A DNA stretch of 37,249 nt from a virus. The notes under the pieces are model-generated. The model saw only the letters and a list, made by a program, of their open reading frames with translations. It was not told where the DNA came from and made no database searches. The stretch covers positions 1 to 37,249 of the IMG/VR virus record IMGVR_UViG_3300037504_000592. One strand, 5' to 3'. Positions 138-37,249 of this stretch are shown here, one piece after another; position 1 is the stretch's first letter; each line of letters opens with the position of its first letter. Both the position numbers and the translations under genes were made by a program.

Positions 138-1733
138 TCCATCATCTATAGTTTGTTTAACTTCAGACTGTGTATTACTCACACCATATATAGTCATTTC
201 AGTTATTCCGGTTCTTTTTATATAAGATAATATCCAGGTATTTCCTGACAACGGCGTGCTTATTGCGCCGTTTAACTCTAGTCTGTCCCCTACATCAGGT
301 ATTATACCTTTGAATTTTTCAAACCAGGTCTCTTCATCCTGATTTGTTGTTGTATGCCACACATAAAAAGAAGTATCTTCAACAACTGACTTAACTGTAT
401 CCGCTTTCACATTCCCACTAACATCCAAAGTTTCGTCTGGTGCAGTAGCCCCAATGCCGACGTTGCCAGAAAAATAACTATCACCTGTACCATCTACCTG
501 GAGAACCCCACTCGTGATGTTGACGGTACCTTGTCGTAATTCAATTAAAGAACCTTGTAATCTTAAAGGCTCAAAATTATCTCCATCTCTATTATAAGAT
601 TGTAATAATGACCTTGTCCCTGTCCAAGCAAGTTCTAAACCACCATTATTACTTGCAGGAAAATTATTGCTTCCTATAATACTTAATATCTGATCCGTAC
701 TATTCCCCTGACTTGTCACATTTTGCAGGGTTGACCAATTGCGGGTGGCTACCCGGCTGCCATTCTCAAATAGCTGACTGCTCGCATTGACATCTTCCGA
801 AAACTCGAACTCCGTATCCGAATCATCCCAATACAATCGCCTATCGACTCCATTGTCGAATATCAAAGCAATATCGGTGGCCGTTTTATTGCCTATTGCG
901 AAGGTATCTCTTATTGTTCCAGATTCGACGTGTTGCTCTCCTGTTATATCAATCTCGATAATTCCGCTTGATGAATTGCTTTTGATGACTGTTCCCATGT
1001 GCTGTACGATGTCAGGATGAGGAGGCTCTATGTCTGTCAGCGCTCCTCTGCCTACGTATAGTTCAGCTCCGCTCGCTAAGGTATCTGTAACCTGCGAATC
1101 CATGTCACCCTCCTGATACACTCTCCCAAATCCATTGTCGGATATTGTAGCATATGTAACCCCGTAAGCAGGCATTTTGGTTTCATCATTGTTATAAGCC
1201 GGCGCAACCTCGGGATATTGACCGTTTGATCCAGTGATATAAACAGGCGTAGCGGCAGGAATGTCAGATCCTGATGTGTTTCTGACTATATGTAGTGCAT
1301 CCCTAAACAAGTCCAATTCTAACCCGGCAGGCATTTTTACCCCAAATTCAGTAAATCCACCACTGTCATAACTATACAAACGAAGGTTATCTATAGCAGG
1401 GGCAGCCGGCACAGATATTTCATCCATATCTATAAATCCTCCAAACCGACTATTACCTTGTAAGTCTAATAGCGATCTTGCCATAGTTCCTCCAATAACC
1501 AAGCTGTCTGTAGTATCAGATGGATATATATAGTTCCCTGTTTTTAACCAATATGTTGAATCTTTAATGGCTGATTTTGCCCACTCTACAGTTGCTATTG
1601 TGTCGCCTGTCGAAACTGATACAAGGTTCTGGCCATTCAGATAAAATGTTTCCCGAACACGAAGCTCATTAAAACTCTGACTAAATGCAGAACTAGCAAA
1701 TAAAAGTGATGTTAAAAATATTAATCGTTTCAT
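78..1733 (-). CDS. Tail fibre-like protein with N-terminal signal peptide
   Basis: 551 aa. The N-terminus (MKRLIFLTSLLFASSAFSQ) is a textbook signal peptide: basic Lys-Arg, hydrophobic core, and an A-F-S cleavage site before Gln19, a common Bacteroidota pattern. The rest is Ser/Thr/Asn/Gly-rich beta sequence. Around residues 420-445 it has SGNVGIGATAPDETLDVSG, a motif typical of the C-terminal parts of phage and Bacteroidota fibre proteins. It is the last tail gene, after the tail-tip genes and before the lysis genes, which fits a receptor-binding or side-fibre role. An export signal on a virion protein is odd, because particles assemble in the cytoplasm. It could instead be exported to the envelope. 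Fibre-like nature is fairly sure; virion location is not. Confidence 0.7.
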   Translation of the reverse strand: MKRLIFLTSLLFASSAFSQSFNELRVRETFYLNGQNLVSVSTGDTIATVEWAKSAIKDSTYWLKTGNYIYPSDTTDSLVIGGTMARSLLDLQGNSRFGGFIDMDEISVPAAPAIDNLRLYSYDSGGFTEFGVKMPAGLELDLFRDALHIVRNTSGSDIPAATPVYITGSNGQYPEVAPAYNNDETKMPAYGVTYATISDNGFGRVYQEGDMDSQVTDTLASGAELYVGRGALTDIEPPHPDIVQHMGTVIKSNSSSGIIEIDITGEQHVESGTIRDTFAIGNKTATDIALIFDNGVDRRLYWDDSDTEFEFSEDVNASSQLFENGSRVATRNWSTLQNVTSQGNSTDQILSIIGSNNFPASNNGGLELAWTGTRSLLQSYNRDGDNFEPLRLQGSLIELRQGTVNITSGVLQVDGTGDSYFSGNVGIGATAPDETLDVSGNVKADTVKSVVEDTSFYVWHTTTNQDEETWFEKFKGIIPDVGDRLELNGAISTPLSGNTWILSYIKRTGITEMTIYGVSNTQSEVKQTIDDGGALIISDNTSLTWRLTKYY

Positions 1734-1734
1734 A

Positions 1735-2334
1735 TTAAAAAGAGTTTGCGATATAACTGAATATCATTGCGTTTGCATCTTTATTTTGCCGCCATACATA
1801 CACAGTTCCATCGGTTTTGATCCTTACTTTATTTAGAGTATCACTTGATACTGAGTATACTTGGTTAAAATCGAAATCATATTCTGGTCGCATTGCAGAA
1901 GGTAATACCAGTGGTGTCGATCCACCAGTATCTTCATATAACTGTTGGTAACTGGACCATGTATTAGTTCCTTCATTTTTAAAAATACCGGTAATAATAT
2001 TTCCAATTCTCTGCAATATAAGACGTCCTATATCATTTCCATTATCACCCCGATAATACCTTACCTTGCTTTCGTTGAATTTCTCAGTAAATAGAGAGAA
2101 AAAATCATCCAAAGTTTTTTGGTATTCATCACCAGATCCATTATTAAGCCGCATTATAAACGTAGCAGTGTTAACAGATCCATTGGCTATTGTGCTTTCT
2201 GCATCAACTTTCGGAGCTAAAGTTCCGACGGCTATATATTTTGCAGCAGTAAAGCCGCTATCATCTATAAGCATCTTTAGTGTAGAACTATAGCTTGCTT
2301 GTTCACTTAAGTTGTATAGTCTGTCATTTGCCAT
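1735..2334 (-). CDS. Tail-tip or fibre-associated protein, hypothetical
   Basis: 199 aa, starting MANDRLYNLSEQASYSS. There is no signal peptide or membrane segment. The sequence is mixed alpha/beta and ends in a beta-rich stretch (IKTDGTVYVWRQNKDANAM) that resembles the end domain of a tail appendage. It sits one base before the fibre gene and five bases after a tail-tip gene, so it belongs to the same late operon and probably to the distal tail. I do not recognise a named family. Confidence 0.55.
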   Translation of the reverse strand: MANDRLYNLSEQASYSSTLKMLIDDSGFTAAKYIAVGTLAPKVDAESTIANGSVNTATFIMRLNNGSGDEYQKTLDDFFSLFTEKFNESKVRYYRGDNGNDIGRLILQRIGNIITGIFKNEGTNTWSSYQQLYEDTGGSTPLVLPSAMRPEYDFDFNQVYSVSSDTLNKVRIKTDGTVYVWRQNKDANAMIFSYIANSF

Positions 2335-2339
2335 TTTTA

Positions 2340-3230
2340 TTAAGATTTATAAATTATTAAATCTCCGCTGTCGTTGTATTCCAAAAGATTATCATCTTCA
2401 TTGATTTCTATAAAGAATGTATCCTCTGGTTGATCTTCTGTTGCTTCTGTATATTTTTCATAATCAACCTGCTGAAGCGTTACAGATCCATTATACATAT
2501 TACTTATAACATTAGCATCTGATATTATATTGCTCTCTCCAAATTCCTCGGCCTGATATTCAACATCGTTTATTTTAAAAACTTCATGGGACAAAGCAAG
2601 ATTAAGTTTTTCAACCATAAAACGAGGGATAGGGCCAAATTCAAGAACAACTTTTCGTATCGGATAGCTTTTAAGGTTGACAAGCGTTTCATCAAAAGAT
2701 GTATAACTCTCTTTGTTTTGCTCGGGTTGATATTCTGCCAAACGGGATTCTAATCTGACCACAAATGTTTCGCTGTTTGTGTAGTTGATTCCGTCTGTCT
2801 CGCTTGTGTTATATTCTATTTTTACAAGCCTGTCCTCATCAAAACCGTCAATTTGAAAGTAATTTGATTTATATATTACAGTTCCCCAGGTTAATTGAAG
2901 GTAATATATACCCTCAACTGCTACCGTGAAAGATAGATTATATATAGTGAAGGTAGTTGAAGTTAAAACAGTAGATATATTCCCAGATTTATCACTTATT
3001 AAATTATCTTCATGATCATAAACCTCTGCGGTTGGCACACCCTGATCAGTTGAAAATTGAATCAATATGGAATCAGCGGAACTTACTTTCTGTAAATATG
3101 GCCTATCAAAGTAATATGGATAATCTTCCTGATGCAAAAGCCTATTATCAAAATTCTGCAAATTAGACCCTTGATTGTCTGTTCGCACCATTCGGAGCGT
3201 ATTAGAAAGCGGTATTTGATAGAATGCCAT
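2340..3230 (-). CDS. Distal tail protein, hypothetical
   Basis: 296 aa (MAFYQIPLSNTLRMVRTDNQ...). It looks built of beta-rich domains: an Ig-like part at about residues 50-130 (FTIYNLSFTVAVEGIYYLQL) and a second half with the aromatic-rich YPIRKVVLEFGPIPRFM segment, ending in an acidic tail. Position after the tape measure and the 561-aa tail protein suggests a tail-tip or baseplate structural component. It has no catalytic motif that I can see. Confidence 0.6.
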   Translation of the reverse strand: MAFYQIPLSNTLRMVRTDNQGSNLQNFDNRLLHQEDYPYYFDRPYLQKVSSADSILIQFSTDQGVPTAEVYDHEDNLISDKSGNISTVLTSTTFTIYNLSFTVAVEGIYYLQLTWGTVIYKSNYFQIDGFDEDRLVKIEYNTSETDGINYTNSETFVVRLESRLAEYQPEQNKESYTSFDETLVNLKSYPIRKVVLEFGPIPRFMVEKLNLALSHEVFKINDVEYQAEEFGESNIISDANVISNMYNGSVTLQQVDYEKYTEATEDQPEDTFFIEINEDDNLLEYNDSGDLIIYKS

Positions 3231-3231
3231 A

Positions 3232-3525
3232 TTACGCCTCCTTTACAGTCAATGAATCTATACTTTTAGATCCTTTACAATGCCAGTCAATTCTTGCCAG
3301 TGTATTGGCATTGAACCCGTATTCATTAAGATTTAACGAGCGGGAACAATAATTATTCCCTGGTTCAGTTCCCGGTTGAACTGATTCTCCCTTTTGCCCC
3401 CAATTCACACGTTTACCGTCACTTAACCTAACAGCAGATTTCTTCTTACCTTTTACTGTGGCATCTTCTATTCTTACCTTTCCAACGTTCGGGATATTGT
3501 ATGTCTTTCCTACCTTTAATGGCAT
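3232..3525 (-). CDS. Small tail-region protein with VxWGQKG...YCSRS motif
   Basis: 97 aa, basic N-terminal half. The central part reads VNWGQKGESVQPGTEPGNNY followed by CSRSLN. This resembles a small family in many phages and bacteria with the pattern VxFGxxG...D...R...YCxRS...W.C, of unknown function; I am recalling that pattern, not matching it to a database. Two Cys (in YCSRS and WHCKG) could form a metal site or disulphide. The start overlaps the previous stop as TAATG, so it is translationally coupled. Confidence 0.6.
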   Translation of the reverse strand: MPLKVGKTYNIPNVGKVRIEDATVKGKKKSAVRLSDGKRVNWGQKGESVQPGTEPGNNYCSRSLNLNEYGFNANTLARIDWHCKGSKSIDSLTVKEA

Positions 3526-4007
3526 TAGCTTACGGTTATGGGTTTTTTACTTATTATTTTCCAGTTGAAAACTATATCTGTTGTGTCTGATCCATCAACC
3601 ACAAACTTCATCTGTAAATTACTGCCATTTAATCTGGCTGTTATGGTCATTCCAAGGTCATCATTGTCACTGCTTGTAACGTCCCAATAATCATTGGACA
3701 CAACCTGAGATGAATCATACATTATTGTAATCTGACCTGACCGATAGGTTCTTGATCCCCTCTTTGCAAGATATTCAACCTTCGCAACAGCATGGACAGT
3801 GCTATCAACGAGAGTATCTATATAAGAAGTTGAATTATAAGAAAGTGTATCTGTTTGCCAATCTTCTAAATCATCAAGTCCCAGGAGCGTTTTTATAGTA
3901 GACCATTGCACGTTATAATCCTGGTCGCCGGCAACAGTGTACAGATAATCAGTCAACAATGCTGAAGTTCTCGTTGTAAGTTGTTTTATTTTTTTCCCTG
4001 TTGCCAT
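3525..4007 (-). CDS. Tail fibre/baseplate-like protein, hypothetical
   Basis: 160 aa from ATG at 4007, which lies one base after the stop of the 561-aa tail gene (TGA-T-ATG); an upstream in-frame TTG at 4022 would overlap that gene and is less likely. The N-terminus (IKQLTTRTSALLTDYLYTVA) resembles the short adaptor segment at the start of many tail-fibre modules, followed by beta-rich sequence. It is a probable distal tail structural protein with no enzymatic motif. Confidence 0.6.
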   Translation of the reverse strand: MATGKKIKQLTTRTSALLTDYLYTVAGDQDYNVQWSTIKTLLGLDDLEDWQTDTLSYNSTSYIDTLVDSTVHAVAKVEYLAKRGSRTYRSGQITIMYDSSQVVSNDYWDVTSSDNDDLGMTITARLNGSNLQMKFVVDGSDTTDIVFNWKIISKKPITVS

Positions 4008-4008
4008 A

Positions 4009-5694
4009 TCACGAATTTTCAAGAATTATTGGACTTCCGCTATTTGTTAGAATATTCTCTTCACTTGCCTGATATATAATGTTATTTGCAGTTATTTCAA
4101 TATTTTGTGCCTCGTATAACTCCCATGTTGTATCTTTGTCAACTCTATCAGTGCTTACCTCCTTAATCCATCCAAAACGATATTCTTTCGCAATATAATC
4201 ATAAAATTTCACCAATCCAAGTGCGCTATCTGTTATTGTGTTAATCTCTGTTCGTGTCAATGGAGCTTCAAATTTGGCGACACGACCTGTTAAACGAGGA
4301 TTTTTTAGATCAGATATAGCTATATCGCGATTTTCGTATATTGTTGTTGTTTCTTCTGCGGTTTGACTGCGTAAATCGGAGAGTTTCTCGGCCTTGTTAA
4401 ATCGTATATTTTTGTCATTTATTTTTTCCAGGCTTGACCGGATCCAATCTCCCCATCGGGTCATATTCCTGGCAGGAGAGAGATATATATTTGCCTGAAT
4501 TGTATTGGATCCATACAAACCGCCTATAAGATCGAAATTTTCATCCTGAACTGTCTTCAGAGTTCCATTGTCATCGAAAATATGGAGGAAAAAAACATCC
4601 TCATCAATGGAAGTATCTTCCTGCTCATCGCTCGCGGTTAATCTATTATCAATAGCAACCTGCATCCCAGTCCCATCTGCTCTATATGTTGATTTAAGAT
4701 CAAGCAATCTATCAGATATAGTTACCGGAGTTTGAAACTCGCTGGCATTGTTGTATTCTGTTAGACCATAATTATTATCTTCTTCAAATTTCTGATAGCC
4801 AGTCTCAATACGTTGAATTATAAGTTCAGGATCGTATTCATATTTAAGGTTCGAAAGATTGTCAACTGTTAATATAATGGTCGTTTGGAAAAAATAATTT
4901 TTATCTTCAATCCTGAAATAATATTTCTGATTATCTTCATCATATTCAACTCCAAGACCCATATTGAAAGCTTTATTGAAGTTTTCAAAAAGGTCTTTAA
5001 GACTAAGATTCAGATTAGCCTCTCCTTCGCTAATATTATCACCGGCTGGATCGGCGCCCCTCATAAGTAGCCCGTTTGATAGGGCTACCATAGAAGCTTT
5101 ACCCTCTAAAGTTCTATCTAAAAATGAAGATTTAACCGGGTTATAGTCAAGATCACATATTGTTTGAAGAATACGATTAAATGCTTCTTTTGGATATACC
5201 GCGGTTCCCGTTGCCGTATCAGTCCCCTTTCCTCTCATTGTAACATCAACAAACTCATTCGTAAAGCCGGGGAGAATGGTGCCATCTATACTTTCTTTCC
5301 GGTTATAAGCTATCTTATTGTCTTCCCGATTCTTCATTTTTTTAAGAACCAGGGAGTCCTCAAAGTTAAGTTCCGTAAAATTCTCTTCCCTTACATAAGT
5401 TTCAGGATCGAAATTTAGAACCCCATTAACTTTTGTTTCATAAGCAAATGTAGTCTGATTAAGTTCTTTTATTGTAATCTCTATCGTATCTTCAAAACCA
5501 TAAGTATCAATTACATCGTCAATGTATTCCTTTCCATCTTTCGTAAATCGCAGCGTACCTGAAAATGATCTAAAAAGCCCATGATAAGTCTGATTTCTTG
5601 ATATAGTATATTTCAGATCATTCCATCCCTCTGGAGCATAATTAAGGATCTTTTCTCCTTTAACGCTATGATTAAGAATATATCTCTGTTTCAT
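4009..5694 (-). CDS. Large tail-tip/baseplate protein downstream of tape measure
   Basis: 561 aa. The N-terminal segment (residues about 1-80: APEGWNDLKYTISRNQTYHG, FRSFSGTLRFTKDGKEYI) is beta-rich and resembles proteins that follow the tape measure in Bacteroidota phages and prophages. By position it takes the place of the distal-tail/tail-associated protein (Dit/Tal) pair, and it may be the baseplate hub. No peptidase motif is visible. Its ATGA overlap with the tape-measure stop shows translational coupling. Confidence 0.65.
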   Translation of the reverse strand: MKQRYILNHSVKGEKILNYAPEGWNDLKYTISRNQTYHGLFRSFSGTLRFTKDGKEYIDDVIDTYGFEDTIEITIKELNQTTFAYETKVNGVLNFDPETYVREENFTELNFEDSLVLKKMKNREDNKIAYNRKESIDGTILPGFTNEFVDVTMRGKGTDTATGTAVYPKEAFNRILQTICDLDYNPVKSSFLDRTLEGKASMVALSNGLLMRGADPAGDNISEGEANLNLSLKDLFENFNKAFNMGLGVEYDEDNQKYYFRIEDKNYFFQTTIILTVDNLSNLKYEYDPELIIQRIETGYQKFEEDNNYGLTEYNNASEFQTPVTISDRLLDLKSTYRADGTGMQVAIDNRLTASDEQEDTSIDEDVFFLHIFDDNGTLKTVQDENFDLIGGLYGSNTIQANIYLSPARNMTRWGDWIRSSLEKINDKNIRFNKAEKLSDLRSQTAEETTTIYENRDIAISDLKNPRLTGRVAKFEAPLTRTEINTITDSALGLVKFYDYIAKEYRFGWIKEVSTDRVDKDTTWELYEAQNIEITANNIIYQASEENILTNSGSPIILENS

Positions 5695-16736: not shown

Positions 16737-16931
16737 ATGCCAAAAAAACCAATTCACGTACAAATTTCGGAAGAACTTTACAGTCAATTCAGGATTAAGC
16801 TGTTTAAAGAAGGAAAGACACAACGGGAAAAAATACAAGAGTGGATTGAGGAATACATCACCAGTCCACAAGCGGCTTCTGTCTCTTACCGGTATACCGA
16901 CGGTAACGATCAGCAAACGCCTGACAGATAA
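16737..16931 (+). CDS. Ribbon-helix-helix protein, antisense within late operon
   Basis: 64 aa. Residues 1-42 fit a MetJ/Arc-type ribbon-helix-helix: basic start MPKKP, beta strand IHVQISEELY, helix QFRIKLFKEG, turn, helix TQREKIQEWIEEYI. The last 20 residues are polar. Family members are dimeric DNA-binding repressors. It is the only rightward gene in the leftward half; its final 74 bases overlap the end of terL in antisense. It may repress itself and the adjoining portal promoter. Confidence 0.75.
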   Translation: MPKKPIHVQISEELYSQFRIKLFKEGKTQREKIQEWIEEYITSPQAASVSYRYTDGNDQQTPDR

Positions 16932-19141: not shown

Positions 19142-19173
19142 CAAGTTTACGAAATATTTTCAAGAAATGCAAA
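19142..19173 (-). promoter_or_regulatory. Leftward Bacteroidota-type promoter
   Basis: On the minus strand TTTG (19173-19170), 20 bases, then TAAACTTG (19149-19142) matches the sigma-ABfr pattern TTTG-N19/20-TAnnTTTG with one mismatch. It stands about 20 bases before the first leftward ORF and faces into the terminase-structural unit. Confidence 0.7.
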
Positions 19174-19411
19174 TTTAATTTTTGGGTGGTGGGGATTAAG
19201 AAGTTCTATTTTGTAATTGTTATAATTTTGAAACAATTTTGTAACGCTCTTAACTCTCTCTCTACTAATATTATATATTATATTATTACAAAATAACAAA
19301 ATATAGTAATAATCTATATGTATAAAAATAAAAATAATATATGAAAATATATAGATATGTTTTATAAAAATATTTTTTTTAGTATAGGTTTAGAAAAATT
19401 TTTGTTATAAT

Positions 19412-19515
19412 GTTACAAACTGCTATAACTCCCGCCACATTTATAAAACCGACGTTACAAAAAATGTTACAAAAAATTTTATTTGTTACAACCCGCTTGT
19501 CACGAGTGTTACAAA
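19412..19515 (+). repeat. Five direct GTTACAA repeats (iteron/operator cluster)
   Basis: GTTACAAA occurs at 19412, 19454, 19466 and 19508, with GTTACAAC at 19485, all in the same orientation. An exact inverted copy TTTGTAAC lies at 19238 and near copies ATTACAAA at 19285 and (inverted) 19210. Spacings are 42, 12, 19 and 23 bases. Such clustering in a 104-base window next to the rightward promoter points to binding sites for a phage protein. Confidence 0.65.
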
Positions 19516-19542
19516 AAAAATATAAAAAAATCTTTCAAAAAA

Positions 19543-19574
19543 TTTGCAAAAGTCTAAAATTATTTATTACTTTG
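19543..19574 (+). promoter_or_regulatory. Rightward Bacteroidota-type promoter
   Basis: TTTG (19543-19546), 20 bases, then TTACTTTG (19567-19574), one mismatch from TAnnTTTG. It is followed within 25 bases by AAGGAGG (19596-19602), a strong Shine-Dalgarno, and ATG 19608. It probably starts the early/replication unit. Confidence 0.7.
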
Positions 19575-19607
19575 CGATATAGAATTTATAAAACTAAGGA
19601 GGTTATT

Positions 19608-19772
19608 ATGGAATTGATAGGTGAATTATTCGTGATTAATTTATTTTACAGTTTTATCATAGGAATTTTTTCAATATTAAAAGGAACATCATTTTGGCAG
19701 GGGTTTATTTTAAGTCTTTTATTTACCCCTTTTGTAGCAATCATTTGCATTTATATTAACCAAAAAAAGTAA
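19608..19772 (+). CDS. Small two-TM membrane protein, first early gene
   Basis: 54 aa from ATG 19608, fixed by the AAGGAGG five bases upstream. Two hydrophobic segments (about 5-24 and 31-50: VINLFYSFIIGIFSILKG and FWQGFILSLLFTPFVAIIC) separated by a short polar turn, ending INQKK. As the first product of the early unit with a strong ribosome site, it could act at the inner membrane soon after infection, for example in superinfection exclusion or host takeover; this is inference. Confidence 0.7.
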   Translation: MELIGELFVINLFYSFIIGIFSILKGTSFWQGFILSLLFTPFVAIICIYINQKK

Positions 19773-19851: not shown

Positions 19852-20049
19852 ATGATAACACACAAAAATAGAGTATATCTGACAATCGAAGAACTCTCCC
19901 AGCATCTCCCCGAAAAACCAACGCTTTCGGCCATATATAGCTGGACCCACAAAAATAAAATCCCTTATGTTCGCTTTGGCCGAAAAATATATTTTGACCG
20001 GGAGCAAATAGACCGCTGGAACGATAGTGGTAGACCGTCTAACGATTAA
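19852..20049 (+). CDS. Excisionase/MerR-like helix-turn-helix protein
   Basis: 65 aa. The segment YLTIEELSQHL...TLSAIYSWTHKNKIPYVRFGRKIYFDREQIDRW fits the HTH_17/excisionase winged-helix family: ELSQHL helix, recognition helix SAIYSWTHK, and the wing IPYVRFGRKIYF. These proteins bind DNA as small regulators, excisionases or loading factors. No integrase is present, so a role in transcription control or in loading at the nearby repeat region is more likely. It lies just before the primase-helicase gene. Confidence 0.8.
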   Translation: MITHKNRVYLTIEELSQHLPEKPTLSAIYSWTHKNKIPYVRFGRKIYFDREQIDRWNDSGRPSND

Positions 20050-20060
20050 AAGATTTTATT

Positions 20061-22196
20061 ATGTCAGATATAACAGATGCAGCCCAGGAGCTGCTCATGG
20101 AAAATATCGCAGCAATACCGGTAAAAAAATCAAAAGCCCCGGATCTTCTTAAAGGATCAGTGTATTTCAAGCAACGAATAGAAGAGGATAAAGTAACCCA
20201 AGTTTTCAACGGTGCTTACGGAGTTGGAATAAAAGCCGGGAGTTTATCAGAAGGAATAGAATGTATTGATTTCGACGACCACGACGGTAAACACGGCATC
20301 AATGAGATACTGAGAAAATTTGGCCGCAATGAATATATCGAACATCTCAAACACGAGGGGAAAATATACGCACAAAGAACCCCATCAGGAGGGTGGCATA
20401 TAGTATACAGGTATATAGCGGACAAATACGAGGGCAACCGGGTACTGGCAAGATGGAAAGACGGTGAAGTAATGATTGAAACAAGGGGTGAAGGTGGTTA
20501 CTTTGTTGCATACCCATCACCCGGATATGAAAAAAGGTATAATGAGCTTGTCAAACTCAAAAAAATAGACAAAGAAGAAAGAGATGATATTATAGAGATT
20601 GCCAAATCTTTAGATCAATCAAAACAAAAAAACGATCCCGATGAAAACGATGACCTCAATACGGAACCGACCGATCCGATTTCAGTATTCAATATCGAAA
20701 AAACGGCATACGCAAAGAAGCTATTAGAAGATAAAGGATGGGTCAAAGTAGACAAGCAAGAAGGCATAGAAAAATGGCGAAGGCCTGGAAAACAAGAAGG
20801 TATTTCAGCAACCTGGGGGTGGCGTTATAATGCACTTTACGTATTTTCTTCAAATGCGTCTCCATTTAAGCAGGGATGTTATTATACACCTTTTCAGATT
20901 ATGGTAAAATTAAGATTTAGAAATAAGTATGTAGATGCTTTGGATTGGGCTAAAAACAAGACAGGTTTTAAACAAGGAGAAAACGAAGCAAAATATATAA
21001 GAGTGGGAGTTGATTATTACAAGGTTATAAAGAAGATTGATCGGTATGGAGTGAGCAGAAAAGAACTTAAACCTTGGAAAAAGGATGAAATAAAGATGGA
21101 TGAAGGTAGCAAATATCCCGAACAAATACCCAAATACGATGATTTCACGATTGAACCAAATAACTTTGATCATCAAACAGTTATAAATAATTATTATAAT
21201 CTTTATAGGGAGTTTCCATTTAAGCCACAGAAAGGATCATGGTACTGGACCGATGTACTTTTACAACATATTTTTGGTGAACAATACGATATAGGGTTAA
21301 AATATTTACAGGCACTTTATCTATACCCCAAAAGAATATTGCCGATTTTGGCGCTTGTTTCACAAGTTCGGGAAACAGGTAAAACAACATTCCTCAATTG
21401 GCTTTCAATGATATGGGGAGACAATATGATAATAATTGGGACTGAAGAATTAAATAGTCAGTTCAATGCTTCATATGCTGCTAAAAATATCATTGCCATA
21501 GAAGAAACTACAGTAGATAAAAAAGTAACAACTGAAAAACTGAAATTTTTAAGTACTGGTAAACAAATTAGTGTTAATCAAAAATTTGTAAATAGTTATA
21601 AGATTCCTTTATACAGCAAAATTATTCTTACGTCAAACGACGAGGACCGATTCGCACAAATAGACCAGGAAGAAGTAAGATATTTTGTACGAAAACTGGG
21701 AAAACCACAGATTCAAAACGCAAATATAGAAGAGGATCTAGTTAAAGAAATACCTGCTTTCTTATACTACCTTACACAAATGCCTGATTTAGACTTTTCA
21801 AAAAGCAGAATGCTATTTACAGCCGAAGAGCTTAATAATGAAAATTTAAAGATTGTAAAAGATGAAAGCAAATCCACATTATATAAAGATTTAAGAGAAT
21901 ATTTAACAGATTTATTTCATAAAAAGGGCGTTCATGAACTTTACGCTGTCCCGGTTGATATTAAAGCAAAGTTTTTCTATAACAACAGCAAAATAGATGT
22001 TAATTATATACGAAGAGTCTTAAAAAAGGAATTTAATAAAAAACCTGAAGATGTGCAAAGATATACTCCGCTTGGAGATAGCCCAGAGGATAAAACAGGA
22101 AGGCCCTTCCGCTTCGACCGCAAAGATTTTATCCAGGATGACAGCGAGCCGGAACAAAATCAGGACAATTGGGAAGATGAAAATGAACCGTTTTAA
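20061..22196 (+). CDS. Primase-polymerase fused to SF3-like helicase
   Basis: 711 aa replication protein. N-terminal bifunctional primase/polymerase (AEP type), residues about 10-160: catalytic acidic pair in CIDFDDH (Asp70, Asp72), TPSGGWHIVYR (107-117), ETRGEGGYFVAYPSPGY (140-156). A linker domain (about 215-310) has KLLEDKGWVKV, RRPGKQEGISA and LYVFSSNASPF, typical of this primase group. Helicase: Walker A SQVRETGKT (about 434-442), Walker B IIAIEET (about 476-482), sensor-1 IILTSND (about 521-527), as in phage SF3/D5-like helicases. It probably synthesises primers and unwinds the phage genome. No DNA polymerase gene is seen, so host polymerase is presumably recruited. The acidic C-terminus (EPEQNQDNWEDENEPF) ends like an SSB tip. 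Confidence 0.9.
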   Translation: MSDITDAAQELLMENIAAIPVKKSKAPDLLKGSVYFKQRIEEDKVTQVFNGAYGVGIKAGSLSEGIECIDFDDHDGKHGINEILRKFGRNEYIEHLKHEGKIYAQRTPSGGWHIVYRYIADKYEGNRVLARWKDGEVMIETRGEGGYFVAYPSPGYEKRYNELVKLKKIDKEERDDIIEIAKSLDQSKQKNDPDENDDLNTEPTDPISVFNIEKTAYAKKLLEDKGWVKVDKQEGIEKWRRPGKQEGISATWGWRYNALYVFSSNASPFKQGCYYTPFQIMVKLRFRNKYVDALDWAKNKTGFKQGENEAKYIRVGVDYYKVIKKIDRYGVSRKELKPWKKDEIKMDEGSKYPEQIPKYDDFTIEPNNFDHQTVINNYYNLYREFPFKPQKGSWYWTDVLLQHIFGEQYDIGLKYLQALYLYPKRILPILALVSQVRETGKTTFLNWLSMIWGDNMIIIGTEELNSQFNASYAAKNIIAIEETTVDKKVTTEKLKFLSTGKQISVNQKFVNSYKIPLYSKIILTSNDEDRFAQIDQEEVRYFVRKLGKPQIQNANIEEDLVKEIPAFLYYLTQMPDLDFSKSRMLFTAEELNNENLKIVKDESKSTLYKDLREYLTDLFHKKGVHELYAVPVDIKAKFFYNNSKIDVNYIRRVLKKEFNKKPEDVQRYTPLGDSPEDKTGRPFRFDRKDFIQDDSEPEQNQDNWEDENEPF

Positions 22197-22771: not shown

Positions 22772-22782
22772 AAATATGAAAT

Positions 22783-22929
22783 ATGAAACTCTTCAACGAT
22801 CACCCCTACACCAAAGCCGCCAGCACCTGCTCCCGCATCCGGGCAATGTGTAAAAAGTCAATTGAAAAAGACAGGCAGAACACGGGTAGAATAGCAAGTA
22901 TAAGTATAAAAAAATTTGTAAAGAATTGA
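22783..22929 (+). CDS. 48-aa basic hypothetical protein
   Basis: ATG 22783 to TGA 22929 encodes MKLFNDHPYTKAASTCSRIR followed by a Lys/Arg-rich tail. The first half uses noticeably more C/G in third positions than its neighbours (CAC CCC TAC ACC), like a real coding stretch. It starts 11 bases after the previous stop and ends 4 bases before the next start, consistent with an operon of small genes. Confidence 0.5.
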   Translation: MKLFNDHPYTKAASTCSRIRAMCKKSIEKDRQNTGRIASISIKKFVKN

Positions 22930-22933
22930 GATT

Positions 22934-23083
22934 ATGAAAATCAAATTTGTAGACCAGGCTTATTGGGATATACTCCTATCCATACGCTATATGCCAGAAC
23001 CGCCAGTGTGGTACCCTAATAATCCGATAAGGCACATAATATATATAAGTTGGCTTAAATGGAATATGCAGATACAATGGTGA
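22934..23083 (+). CDS. 49-aa Trp/Tyr/Pro-rich hypothetical protein
   Basis: ATG 22934 to TGA 23083. The peptide has YWDILLSIRYMPEPPVWYPN then IRHIIYISWLKWNMQIQW; it is rich in aromatics and may bind a membrane or partner protein. No family recognised. The 67 bases that follow hold only an A-rich leader of the next gene. Confidence 0.45.
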   Translation: MKIKFVDQAYWDILLSIRYMPEPPVWYPNNPIRHIIYISWLKWNMQIQW

Positions 23084-23150
23084 AAAAAATATCGACAAAA
23101 AAACCGTGAAAAAACAAGTTAAATGTTAATATAAGCTAAAATCAAAAATC

Positions 23151-25391
23151 ATGAACTACACGAAATTTTTAGAGAAAAAGAAAAAAGTAAAAACAGATTC
23201 AGGATTTACGCCTAATTTATTAAATGAAAATTTATATGAATTTCAAAAATATATTGTAAATCGAGCTTGCCAGGCAGGAAAATTCGCAATATTCGCAGAC
23301 ACTGGATTAGGAAAAACTTTAATGCAGCTTGAATGGGCAAAGCAAGTCAGAGATCGGGTTCAAAAATCCATTCTTATCGTTGCTCCGTTAGCGGTTAGGC
23401 AGCAAACAGTAGAAGAAGGCGAGCGATTTGGATATAAAGTACATAAATTTGAAGAAAATTATTTGCTTTATAATGATTCATTTGAAGATGAGTTCAAAAA
23501 CCGCATATATATTACTAATTACGAGAACCTTCATAATGTAAATGCAGAACTGTTTGATGGGGTTATATTAGATGAAAGTTCTATCTTAAAAAATTCAGAA
23601 GGATTTAACCGAAATGAACTTATTAAAAAATTTAAAAATACTCCTTATAAATTATGTTGTACGGCTACACCCTCCCCGAATGACCCCATGGAACTTGGCA
23701 ATCACAGCGAGTTTTTGGATGTTATGGGATACAATGAAATGTTATCAATGTACTTCATCCACGATGGCGGCAACACCTCCAAATGGCGGCTAAAAAAACA
23801 TGCCAAAGACGATTTTTATGAGTTCGTTAGCTCCTGGGCCGTAATGTTAAAACTCCCATCCGATTTGGGATATGATGATAATGGGTTTATCTTACCTGGC
23901 CTTAATATGGAAGAGATTATCATACAAACCACGGTTCAGGATGGGATGCTTTTTAATCATTCTGCAGTAAATTCAACAGATTTTGGGAAATCATTAAGAG
24001 AAACCGAATATGATAGGCTCAATAAAGTAATTAAGATAGTTCAACGTTTAAACGGGGAACAAATAATTATATGGGCAAAGCAAAATATAGAAAGCGACAG
24101 ACTCCAAAAAATGCTTAATGATAAAGGATATGATTGCAGGAATGTAAAAGGGTCAGACAGCCAGGAGAAGAAAGAAAACGATCTTATCGGTTTTGCAAAC
24201 AATGATTATCAAATACTTATTACAAAGTCAAAAATTGCTCAATACGGACTTAATTACCAAAATTGTCACAATCAAATTTTCACGGCTGTTGACTTTTCAT
24301 TTGAAGCTACTTATCAAAGTATAAGGCGTTCATACAGGTTTGGCCAGCATCATGTTGTCAATGCCTGGCTCATCACTACTGATCGGATGACTAATGTTTT
24401 ACAACTTTTCAAGAAAAAACAAAAACAATTCGAAGAAATGCGATCCAGAATGACCAAGGCAATTAACAAACATACAAAAGTAGAAATAACAGACAATTCA
24501 ACAGATGAAGAAACAATCAAAGCTAAAAACTATACACTTATGAAAGGCGATAATGTAAAAAGAATCAAAGAAATAGAAGATAACTCAGTAGATTTGTTTA
24601 TCACTTCAACCCCATTTGCAGAGTTATATACGTATAGCTCATACATTCAAGATATGGGTAATGCAAAAGATTATGATGAATTCTTTAGTCATTTAGATTT
24701 CCTTTTGCCTGATCTTAAAAGGGTAATGACGCCCGGTCGAATAGTCGCATTTCATTGTATGGATCTTCCTGTCCAAAAAGGGAAAGAAGGTTATATCGGA
24801 TTAAGAGATTTTTCAGGAAGTCTCATTCAAAGAATGACTGATAACGGATTTATTTATCATTCCAGAATAACGATATGGAAAAATCCCGTAACTGAAATGA
24901 CCAGAACAAAAGCGCTTGGATTGCTACACAAGCAAATTAAAAAAGATTCCGCTATGTGTCGGGTGGGTATCCCGGATTATATACTGGTTTTCCGGGTGCC
25001 TGGCGAAAACCCAAAACCTATAATAAATCAGGATAAGGATTCGCAAAAAGAAAATTATATACCTGTAGACATGTGGCAGAAAATTGCATCACCTGTATGG
25101 TATGACATTGATTATTCAAAAACTCTCAACTATCGAGAAGCAAAAACAAATGAAGATGAGAAGCATATTTGCCCGCTTCAACTTGACACGATTGAAAGAT
25201 TGTTGCTTCTTTATAGCAATGAAGGTGACACTGTCGGGGATTTTTTCGGAGGTATCATGTCAGTAGGGTTTGAAAGCATTAAGAAGAAACGTAAATTTAT
25301 AGGTATGGAATTGAAAGATAGTTATTTTAATCTTGGCAAAATAAAAATGAAAATGAGCGAAATTGAAAAACGCCAACAAAAACTCTTCTAA
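23151..25391 (+). CDS. SNF2-like helicase fused to N4/N6 DNA methyltransferase
   Basis: 746 aa. N-terminal helicase: Q-like FQKYIVNRACQAG, Walker A ADTGLGKT (49-56), DESS box (142-145), motif III CTATPSPND (171-179), motif VI QSIRRSYRFGQ (about 388-398). C-terminal methyltransferase: target/catalytic motif IV TSTPFAELYTYSS (from 485) and SAM-binding DFFGGIMSVGFES (from 697), a beta-class order (IV before I). Helicase-methyltransferase fusions of this kind are recurrent in phages and are thought to modify phage DNA against restriction. Catalytic motif IV is normally SPP(F/Y); here it is S486-T487-P488-F489, so activity is uncertain. Preceded by the A-rich leader AAAATCAAAAATC. Confidence 0.9.
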   Translation: MNYTKFLEKKKKVKTDSGFTPNLLNENLYEFQKYIVNRACQAGKFAIFADTGLGKTLMQLEWAKQVRDRVQKSILIVAPLAVRQQTVEEGERFGYKVHKFEENYLLYNDSFEDEFKNRIYITNYENLHNVNAELFDGVILDESSILKNSEGFNRNELIKKFKNTPYKLCCTATPSPNDPMELGNHSEFLDVMGYNEMLSMYFIHDGGNTSKWRLKKHAKDDFYEFVSSWAVMLKLPSDLGYDDNGFILPGLNMEEIIIQTTVQDGMLFNHSAVNSTDFGKSLRETEYDRLNKVIKIVQRLNGEQIIIWAKQNIESDRLQKMLNDKGYDCRNVKGSDSQEKKENDLIGFANNDYQILITKSKIAQYGLNYQNCHNQIFTAVDFSFEATYQSIRRSYRFGQHHVVNAWLITTDRMTNVLQLFKKKQKQFEEMRSRMTKAINKHTKVEITDNSTDEETIKAKNYTLMKGDNVKRIKEIEDNSVDLFITSTPFAELYTYSSYIQDMGNAKDYDEFFSHLDFLLPDLKRVMTPGRIVAFHCMDLPVQKGKEGYIGLRDFSGSLIQRMTDNGFIYHSRITIWKNPVTEMTRTKALGLLHKQIKKDSAMCRVGIPDYILVFRVPGENPKPIINQDKDSQKENYIPVDMWQKIASPVWYDIDYSKTLNYREAKTNEDEKHICPLQLDTIERLLLLYSNEGDTVGDFFGGIMSVGFESIKKKRKFIGMELKDSYFNLGKIKMKMSEIEKRQQKLF

Positions 25392-29694: not shown

Positions 29695-30308
29695 AACATC
29701 ATAACATCCAACAACGAACCCTTGAATGGGGGGACATTAGACTCGGCAAAATAACCGCATCCAATGCTCATGTATTATATATGGACGGTAATACTAAAGG
29801 CCGTCAACAATACCGGTTCAAACTGGCATACGAAAGACTATTTCAGGAGTCTATGCCTGAAAAATTTAATGGTAACCGAGAAACCGGAAAAGGCATAGAG
29901 GCCGAGCAATATGGCAAGGAACAATATGAAATGCAGATGTTTGAAAAGGTCCATGAACCCGGTTTCTTTGAGATAGACGGATGGGTAGGATGTAGTCCGG
30001 ATGGACTAGTTGGTAAGCAAGGCCTCATCGAAATTAAGGCCCTTACAGTTGGCAACACTTTCAGAGAGAAGATATTAAATGACTTTACCATAGAACAGGC
30101 TCAATACGAACAATGCCAGTTTCAACTTATGATCACATACAGGCGGTGGGTGGATCTTATATATGTGCCTCCAACTTTTAAGGCAAAAATTCAGATAAGG
30201 AGAGTTGAAAGATCCCCTGAATACATAGATAATATGTGGCAGAGAGCAAAAGACCTGAATGCTGAAGTTGAAGAAGAAATGAGTTTAATTCAAAATTACA
30301 TGGCATGA
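29691..30308 (+). CDS. YqaJ-type phage exonuclease
   Basis: 205 aa. N-terminal QQRTLEWGDIRLGKITAS, then GKGIEAEQYGKEQYE (Glu70), GWVGCSPDGLV (Asp104) and GLIEIKAL (Glu114-x-Lys116): the PD-(D/E)XK motif of the lambda exonuclease/YqaJ family, followed by QCQFQLMITYRRWVDLIYVPP. It resects dsDNA ends to leave 3' tails for the Rad52-type partner. It overlaps that gene by 4 bases (ATGA) and is followed by the DnaA-like gene. Confidence 0.9.
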   Translation: MKHHNIQQRTLEWGDIRLGKITASNAHVLYMDGNTKGRQQYRFKLAYERLFQESMPEKFNGNRETGKGIEAEQYGKEQYEMQMFEKVHEPGFFEIDGWVGCSPDGLVGKQGLIEIKALTVGNTFREKILNDFTIEQAQYEQCQFQLMITYRRWVDLIYVPPTFKAKIQIRRVERSPEYIDNMWQRAKDLNAEVEEEMSLIQNYMA

Positions 30309-30640
30309 TAAACTATATGGCAATACCAGGCATTAAGCGTACTCCTCCATCAGTGGAAACTATATACAAAATTGTAGCCAAGCATTATGGATACAATATT
30401 GATAATATAAAAAATTCAGAGTTGAGGAGAGATATAGCACTTATGAGACACACGGCAATGTATTTTGCCCGAAAATTAACGAGTGACTCATATCAGGCAA
30501 TCGGAAAACAGATTGGTAAGAAAGACCACACAACGTGTGTATATGCAGTCCGAAAAGTTGAAAATCTTATGAGTGTCGATCGTAAATTCAACCAGGATAT
30601 AAGATTGATAGAGCAAAAAATAAGGAGGGAGTTCTTATAA
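30305..30640 (+). CDS. Stand-alone DnaA domain IV DNA-binding protein
   Basis: 111 aa. Residues about 15-111 match DnaA domain IV: IYKIVAKHYGYNIDNIKNSE, LRRDIALMRHTAMYFARKLT, then YQAIGKQIGKKDHTTCVYAV (the DnaA signature IGxxxGxxDHTTVxxA) and a final helix. The AAA+ part is missing. It should bind DnaA-box-like sequence, either as an origin recogniser that recruits the phage primase-helicase or as a competitor of host DnaA. Overlaps both neighbours by a few bases (ATGA, TAATG). Confidence 0.9.
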   Translation: MINYMAIPGIKRTPPSVETIYKIVAKHYGYNIDNIKNSELRRDIALMRHTAMYFARKLTSDSYQAIGKQIGKKDHTTCVYAVRKVENLMSVDRKFNQDIRLIEQKIRREFL

Positions 30641-36995: not shown

Positions 36996-37187
36996 TTATT
37001 CTCTCCATGATATACTGAAATAATTTCCAACATTACCTGTACTGCCATTAATTATATATTCATCAATTTCATCATAGATTTTTTGTATTAATGCGCCATT
37101 TTCGTAAAATTCGTCACCCAAAAGAAAATCTTTAATTTCTTTGACATCTTTTTCTAGCCGCTTGAAATGATTGTCGTCAATTTGCAT
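36996..37187 (-). CDS. Small hypothetical protein spanning map junction
   Basis: 63 aa from ATG 37187, which lies two bases after the fibre stop when the circle is closed; ATG 37214 would add nine residues and overlap the fibre gene. Helical, acidic (FKRLEKDVKEIKDFLLGDEF, ALIQKIYDEIDEYIING). It links tail and lysis genes. No family recognised. Confidence 0.55.
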   Translation of the reverse strand: MQIDDNHFKRLEKDVKEIKDFLLGDEFYENGALIQKIYDEIDEYIINGSTGNVGNYFSISWRE

Positions 37188-37249
37188 AGTTAATAATATT
37201 TCGTTAATCTCCATGTTAGTGATGTATTATCTGATATATTCAAAGCCCC
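37113..37249. repeat. Direct terminal repeat / circular-map overlap, right copy
   Basis: This is the second copy of the 137-bp repeat, starting at GTCACCC. It carries the start of the 63-aa leftward gene and, in the overlapping frame, the last codons of the fibre gene. One base (37239) differs from the left copy. Confidence 0.95.

Follow-up and report, generated by a model that had tools for sequence, protein, structure and literature searches.

The virus record analysed here (the window) comprises 37,249 bases, of which the first and last 137 (1-137 and 37113-37249) are a direct repeat of each other apart from a single mismatch. The record is not classed as closed; from this terminal repeat it appears to be circularly closed at about 37.1 kb, and it probably represents a complete circular assembly. 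The main genes on the + strand, for replication and recombination, occupy 19.6 to 33.0 kb, while those on the − strand, for packaging, virion and lysis, extend leftward from 19.1 kb to position 1 and continue beyond the join between 37.2 and 33.0 kb. According to the ORF list, the late operon (leftward) and the early operon (rightward) are separated by a divergent gap of 465 bp (19145-19609, 79% AT), which harbors the putative origin discussed below. An earlier note on this DNA, made from its letters alone, had called the gap the only long gene-free stretch; it is indeed the longest, but a second ORF-poor gap of 379 bp lies at 22772-23150, with a possible ORF of ~49 codons and no significant repeat cluster just upstream. 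This second gap is followed by a gene (23151-25391) for a 746-aa protein with SNF2/ResIII-type helicase domains and an N6/N4 DNA methylase domain, 29% identical to a protein of Pseudanabaena phage Pan5 annotated as an EcoP15I modification subunit.

The divergent gap contains six exact copies of the heptamer GTTACAA (five + and one −), arranged around an AT-rich stretch. The right group consists of five copies on the + strand within 19412-19514 (starts 19412, 19454, 19466, 19485 and 19508), which a direct count of sites confirmed as previously described, and on the opposite strand these iterons read TTTTGTAAC. The left group (19211-19245, − strand) is inverted relative to the right one and is composed of GTTACAA at 19239-19245 and TTACAA at 19211-19216, whereas an extra TTACAA site on the + strand (19286-19291) sits at the left edge of the AT-rich stretch. 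The inverted exact copy and the near matches of the earlier note are therefore present, the latter as TTGTAA/TTACAA, although each starts one base further on than it had given (19239, 19211 and 19286 instead of 19238, 19210 and 19285). The AT-rich stretch itself (19262-19405), a candidate unwinding element, includes a 60-mer of 95% AT (19321-19380). When the gap was shuffled 2000 times with dinucleotide composition retained, GTTACAA reached at most 2 copies, and heptamers with at least two G/C at most 3 per strand. The genome-wide tally that the note had proposed is close to background in total (9 observed vs 5.6 expected; 12 of 100 shuffles reach 9), yet six of the nine copies are concentrated in the gap, which with one mismatch allowed is also the densest 400 bp of the genome for GTTACAA. 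The gap thus combines two features of iteron origins, namely short repeats above chance and an AT-rich region adjoining or between them. Single-strand folding of the iteron array gave no gain over shuffles (z 0.20), a search of viral_contigs with the exact repeat pattern returned three matches only, all apparently lysine-rich coding sequence, and a DNA-level search of phages returned zero matches.

Promoter-like boxes point outward at both ends of the gap, TTTG-N20-TTACTTTG rightward (19543-19574, + strand) and TTTG-N20-TAAACTTG leftward (19142-19173, − strand). The flanking promoters of the earlier note are to this extent recovered, but as tentative assignments, given that the number of such boxes in the genome shows no clear enrichment (23 vs 9-23 in shuffles). 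The boxes fit what we take to be a Bacteroidota-type consensus and, together with distant relatives among Bacteroides and Flavobacterium phages, suggest that the host likely belongs to the Bacteroidota. A switch in GC skew is indeed seen near 19.6 kb, but since gene orientation flips at the same place the two are confounded and the skew is not independent evidence. As for the proteins that had been nominated to bind the repeats, a 65-aa HTH_17 protein is encoded between the origin and the primase-helicase gene (19852-20049, + strand; Pfam HTH_17 9e-9), and a stand-alone DnaA domain IV protein at 30305-30640, in a genome that has no DnaA box TTATNCACA anywhere, in contrast to a DnaA-box origin. 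In our tallies of 15 iteron-bearing relative records, which are perhaps incomplete, HTH_17 occurred in 2 and DnaA domain IV in 1, so neither regulator is conserved together with the sites. This rarity makes both unlikely as general binders; they may instead be accessory factors, the HTH_17 protein possibly an accessory regulator. A 64-aa RHH-like ORF (16737-16931, + strand) overlaps the 3′ end of the opposite-strand terminase gene, with Pfam support below the cut-off.

A better candidate for the binder, which the earlier note did not name, appears to be the primase-helicase itself. Its gene (20061-22196, + strand) starts 547 bp past the last iteron and encodes Prim-Pol (Pfam 2e-9) and SF3-type DUF5906 (5e-15) domains, with a PHROG match to DNA polymerase/primase; a helicase gene beside the repeats, as in origins of the SaPI/SCC type, is accordingly found here. 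We propose the C-terminal domain (aa 582-711, 21804-22193, + strand) as the reader of the iterons, from its predicted winged-helix fold and the covariation described below. In its AlphaFold2 model (core pLDDT 85-92) the topology is H-E-H-H-E-E-E, an order that predicts a winged helix, and VIA-align placed winged-helix proteins at Z scores of about 5 to 6, which are middling and tied (best 5.7). Tied with others among these was PriRep1 in complex with dsDNA (7pds_B; Z 5.5, rmsd 3.5 over 84 residues), presumably the SaPI5 protein. Foldseek found nothing significant for the domain in the PDB (no E below 0.4), and a PDB sequence search with the primase-helicase gave chance matches only, with no credible similarity to any chain. 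A model of the helicase part joined to the C-terminal domain was set aside because of its pLDDT of 51. In the present phage the cluster precedes the operon and is about 2.4 kb away from the coding sequence of the C-terminal domain, an arrangement from which nearly all relatives differ, so that the pairing of iterons and domain in this genome rests on rules derived from the family. Directly downstream of the helicase gene, where origins of the SaPI/SCC type are located and where clusters occur in 71 relative loci, the window has no iteron cluster (323 of 400 shuffles reach the observed count).

Relatives were collected by alignment-based searches; single-protein searches with the primase or the capsid returned none. 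A terminase alignment yielded 80 relatives, and helicase alignments yielded L101-L114 and then L119-L198; these are metagenome contigs, of which some are truncated, some nearly identical to one another, and some in the helicase sets overlapping stretches of the same contigs. Among the terminase relatives, several have clusters that surround an AT-rich stretch, each with its own short repeat: TGTAAA in L033, AGTTAC in L027, GTTCAC in L045 and L048, TTACTA in L054, AGTAAGG in L074, GTAACC in L066, and others. Where the neighboring genes are recognizable, they encode DUF5906/VapE (L033), DUF3987 (L027, L074), VapE (L048) or PrimPol (L054), and in two VapE records found by protein family the repeats likewise adjoin the helicase gene (GTAAC in L098, TTACC/GGTAA in L023). 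The flanking genes are on the same strand in L023, L048, L054, L074 and L098, which implies that the structure is independent of divergent promoters.

The regions beside the helicase gene had repeat counts above all 400 shuffles in 12 of 17 cases tested, with weaker values in L101, L023, L027 (7/400 shuffles) and L048 (39/400 shuffles); in L101 the gene-adjacent region is not significant, the cluster being located some 1.2 kb beyond the 3′ end of the gene. None of 102 control 500-bp flanks of other genes exceeded all of their shuffles. We then scanned 86 whole helicase-relative loci (4-9 kb) with an untruncated 3′ side, defining a strong cluster as 7 or more copies of a single 6-mer within 400 bp; the statistic is a maximum over 6-mers, meant to be calibrated by the shuffles and the 102 control flanks. 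Strong clusters were found in 76 of these loci, 71 of them 3′-adjacent to the helicase gene, 4 3′-near and 1 on the 5′ side (L114, which is the same as L033), with none elsewhere in the 4-9 kb; the other 10 loci had no strong cluster. The layout is stable, with two groups, an AT-rich gap between them and a total span of mostly 180-360 bp; the commonest spacing of same-strand neighbors is 11 bp, about one helical turn, and the most AT-rich 60-mer lies inside the cluster in 47 of 53. In L119, a close relative of full length, GTAACAAAA iterons are laid out as in the present phage (GTAACAAAA and GTTACAAAA are one central base apart), and L033 shares with the present phage both an origin upstream of the operon and a cluster in a divergent region. 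This comparison strongly supports the suggestion of the earlier note that the gap is an origin with iterons. Three further observations were made on individual relatives. In L027 the AGTTACA cluster is flanked by a DUF3987 helicase (995-3274) and a 187-aa protein (3336-3899) whose C-terminal ends are similar by eye, so that initiator and regulator perhaps share one DNA-reading domain. L031, a record with no recognized VapE, DUF3987 or PrimPol protein, has GGTAC repeats in inverted pairs at 4013-4224, and L113 has an apparent frameshift near 4900, in the region for the helicase C-terminus (4600-5036), which comes either from faulty sequencing or from a broken gene.

The repeat sequence differs between relatives, and it does so together with the winged helix. 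Among 53 distinct helicase proteins, of which almost all come from uncultivated phages, repeat similarity was correlated with winged-helix identity when core identity was held fixed (partial r 0.453, 0/2000 permutations), whereas the value for core identity with the winged helix fixed was −0.142; the permutations assume that the proteins are exchangeable and account for phylogeny only incompletely. Simple linkage could explain such a correlation, because the end of the helicase gene and the repeats are neighbors. In a linkage control restricted to 1203 pairs whose repeat-masked origin DNA had no detectable similarity, the partial r was 0.276 (0/2000 permutations), and all 11 of these pairs in which winged-helix identity was 0.6 or higher had their repeat in common. 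The persistence of the effect in pairs that cannot be aligned argues that domain and repeat are linked beyond the shared ancestry of the surrounding DNA. A natural experiment is provided by L107 and L110, whose DNA is about 90% identical over several kb apart from two segments. One of these, at 4.7-5.3 kb, covers the C-terminal domain and the iterons, and the other, around 2.0-2.6 kb in L107, is an unrelated insertion with an ORF that is nuclease-like by eye. The two helicases are 96-100% identical over their first 400 residues (99% in the core), but identity drops to 38% in the C-terminal domain (about 45% for the winged helix) and the repeats are TTGTAAAAAA vs AGTAAT. On sequence comparison this is a natural swap, in which the C-terminal domain and the repeats have been exchanged together. 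From the covariation and this swap we propose that the helicase C-terminal domain sets repeat specificity, presumably by binding the iterons. A possible second natural switch separates L152 and L172 from L164 and L176 (cores ~91% alike, winged helix 73-80%, repeats TGTTATT vs TGTTAA), which could point to specificity residues.

We therefore consider it highly probable, on comparative grounds, that the GTTACAA cluster is a replication origin whose iterons are bound by the C-terminal winged helix of the PrimPol/DUF5906 primase-helicase. In the mechanism that we propose, this domain would bind the iterons, helicase subunits would assemble on the inverted groups flanking the AT-rich 19262-19405 and melt that stretch, and the helicase would then load onto the single strands, unwind further and prime synthesis. 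Iteron binding in the present phage, melting, helicase loading and use of the origin in vivo are all inferred. Chance grouping within an AT-rich spacer, or alternatively a selfish repeat, would agree with the AT-rich heptamer and its near-expected genome-wide count, but not one of the 2000 shuffles of this very spacer gave more than two copies and the architecture is kept in relatives although the repeat differs, so we give this almost no credence.

A transcriptional operator only, at which an HTH_17, RHH or DnaA domain IV regulator switches the late and early promoters, would suit a cluster placed between divergent operons with outward promoter-like boxes, and a small HTH gene between it and the primase-helicase gene (L033 likewise has a small ORF there). 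We judge this improbable, as most relatives have their cluster between same-strand genes, 3′ of the helicase, HTH_17 and DnaA domain IV are rare in the iteron-bearing records (again, perhaps incomplete), no DnaA box is present, and the repeat tracks the helicase C-terminal domain; the multi-site operator coupling early and late transcription of the earlier note is accordingly not needed. A refinement of the origin reading, in which the iteron-bound initiator would additionally act as repressor or activator of one or both flanking promoters and so tie replication to the early-to-late switch, is possible though we lean against it. The divergent setting here and in L033 speaks for it, and autoregulation is common among the initiators of iteron plasmids; however, 28 bp separate the end of the last iteron from the predicted rightward −33 box downstream of it, which does not readily suggest simple occlusion of the promoter, both promoters are predicted from boxes that are not clearly enriched, and most relatives lack the divergent arrangement.

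Among the closest known systems, direct repeats beside an AT-rich unwinding region are the initiator sites of lambda O and of iteron plasmids of the RepA type, but those initiators recruit the host helicase, whereas the initiator proposed here is itself a helicase. In the satellite phage P4, the alpha protein is primase, helicase and origin binder in one and acts on short iterons at ori/crr; it may resemble the present primase-helicase in outline but belongs to a different sequence family, and a literature search on P4 alpha iterons found nothing relevant. In the SaPI origins, the C-terminal domain of Rep reads multiple short iterons 3′ of its own gene (PMC7581432, citing Ubeda 2007). Like the initiator proposed here, the SaPI initiators, including PriRep1 of SaPI5, are self-loading helicases or primase-helicases with the C-terminal domain as iteron reader, the structure of PriRep1 with DNA (7pds_B) belongs, tied with others, to the top structural matches of our domain, and the SaPI position directly 3′ of the helicase gene is common to most relatives. 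The present origin differs in belonging to a tailed phage rather than a satellite, in its PrimPol + DUF5906 helicase family, in iterons of the GTAA/TTAC type and in its location, which is upstream of the operon and within a region of divergent promoters. In SCCmec, the C-terminal domain of the Cch2 helicase binds short AAGTG direct repeats beside its own gene (PMC7581432), with three repeats vs six to fifteen here and with a separate polymerase protein as primase; its replication in vivo was not demonstrated there. Our search of the open-licence full-text literature on iterons of Bacteroidetes phages and VapE-type origins found no description of such an origin.

A repeat cluster that had lacked an explanation becomes a predicted replication origin for which an initiator can be named, and the rule that the tail domain of the helicase predicts the iteron holds over 53 distinct helicase proteins. 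Compared with other iteron origins of self-loading helicases, the present phage is unusual in having its origin 5′ of the replication operon, within a divergent promoter region. A speculative and rather doubtful joint reading is that tail and iterons form a replication-identity code, swapped as a cassette, and that the origin has moved to where binding of the initiator times the late switch. If true, cassette exchange among near-identical phages would let each copy only its own genome in a mixed infection, and the origin, now in the early/late promoter region, would allow initiator binding to time the switch to late transcription. The natural domain-swap pairs offer material for working out how winged helices recognize GTAA-type sites, and the rule places origins on genomes that previously had no annotated origin.
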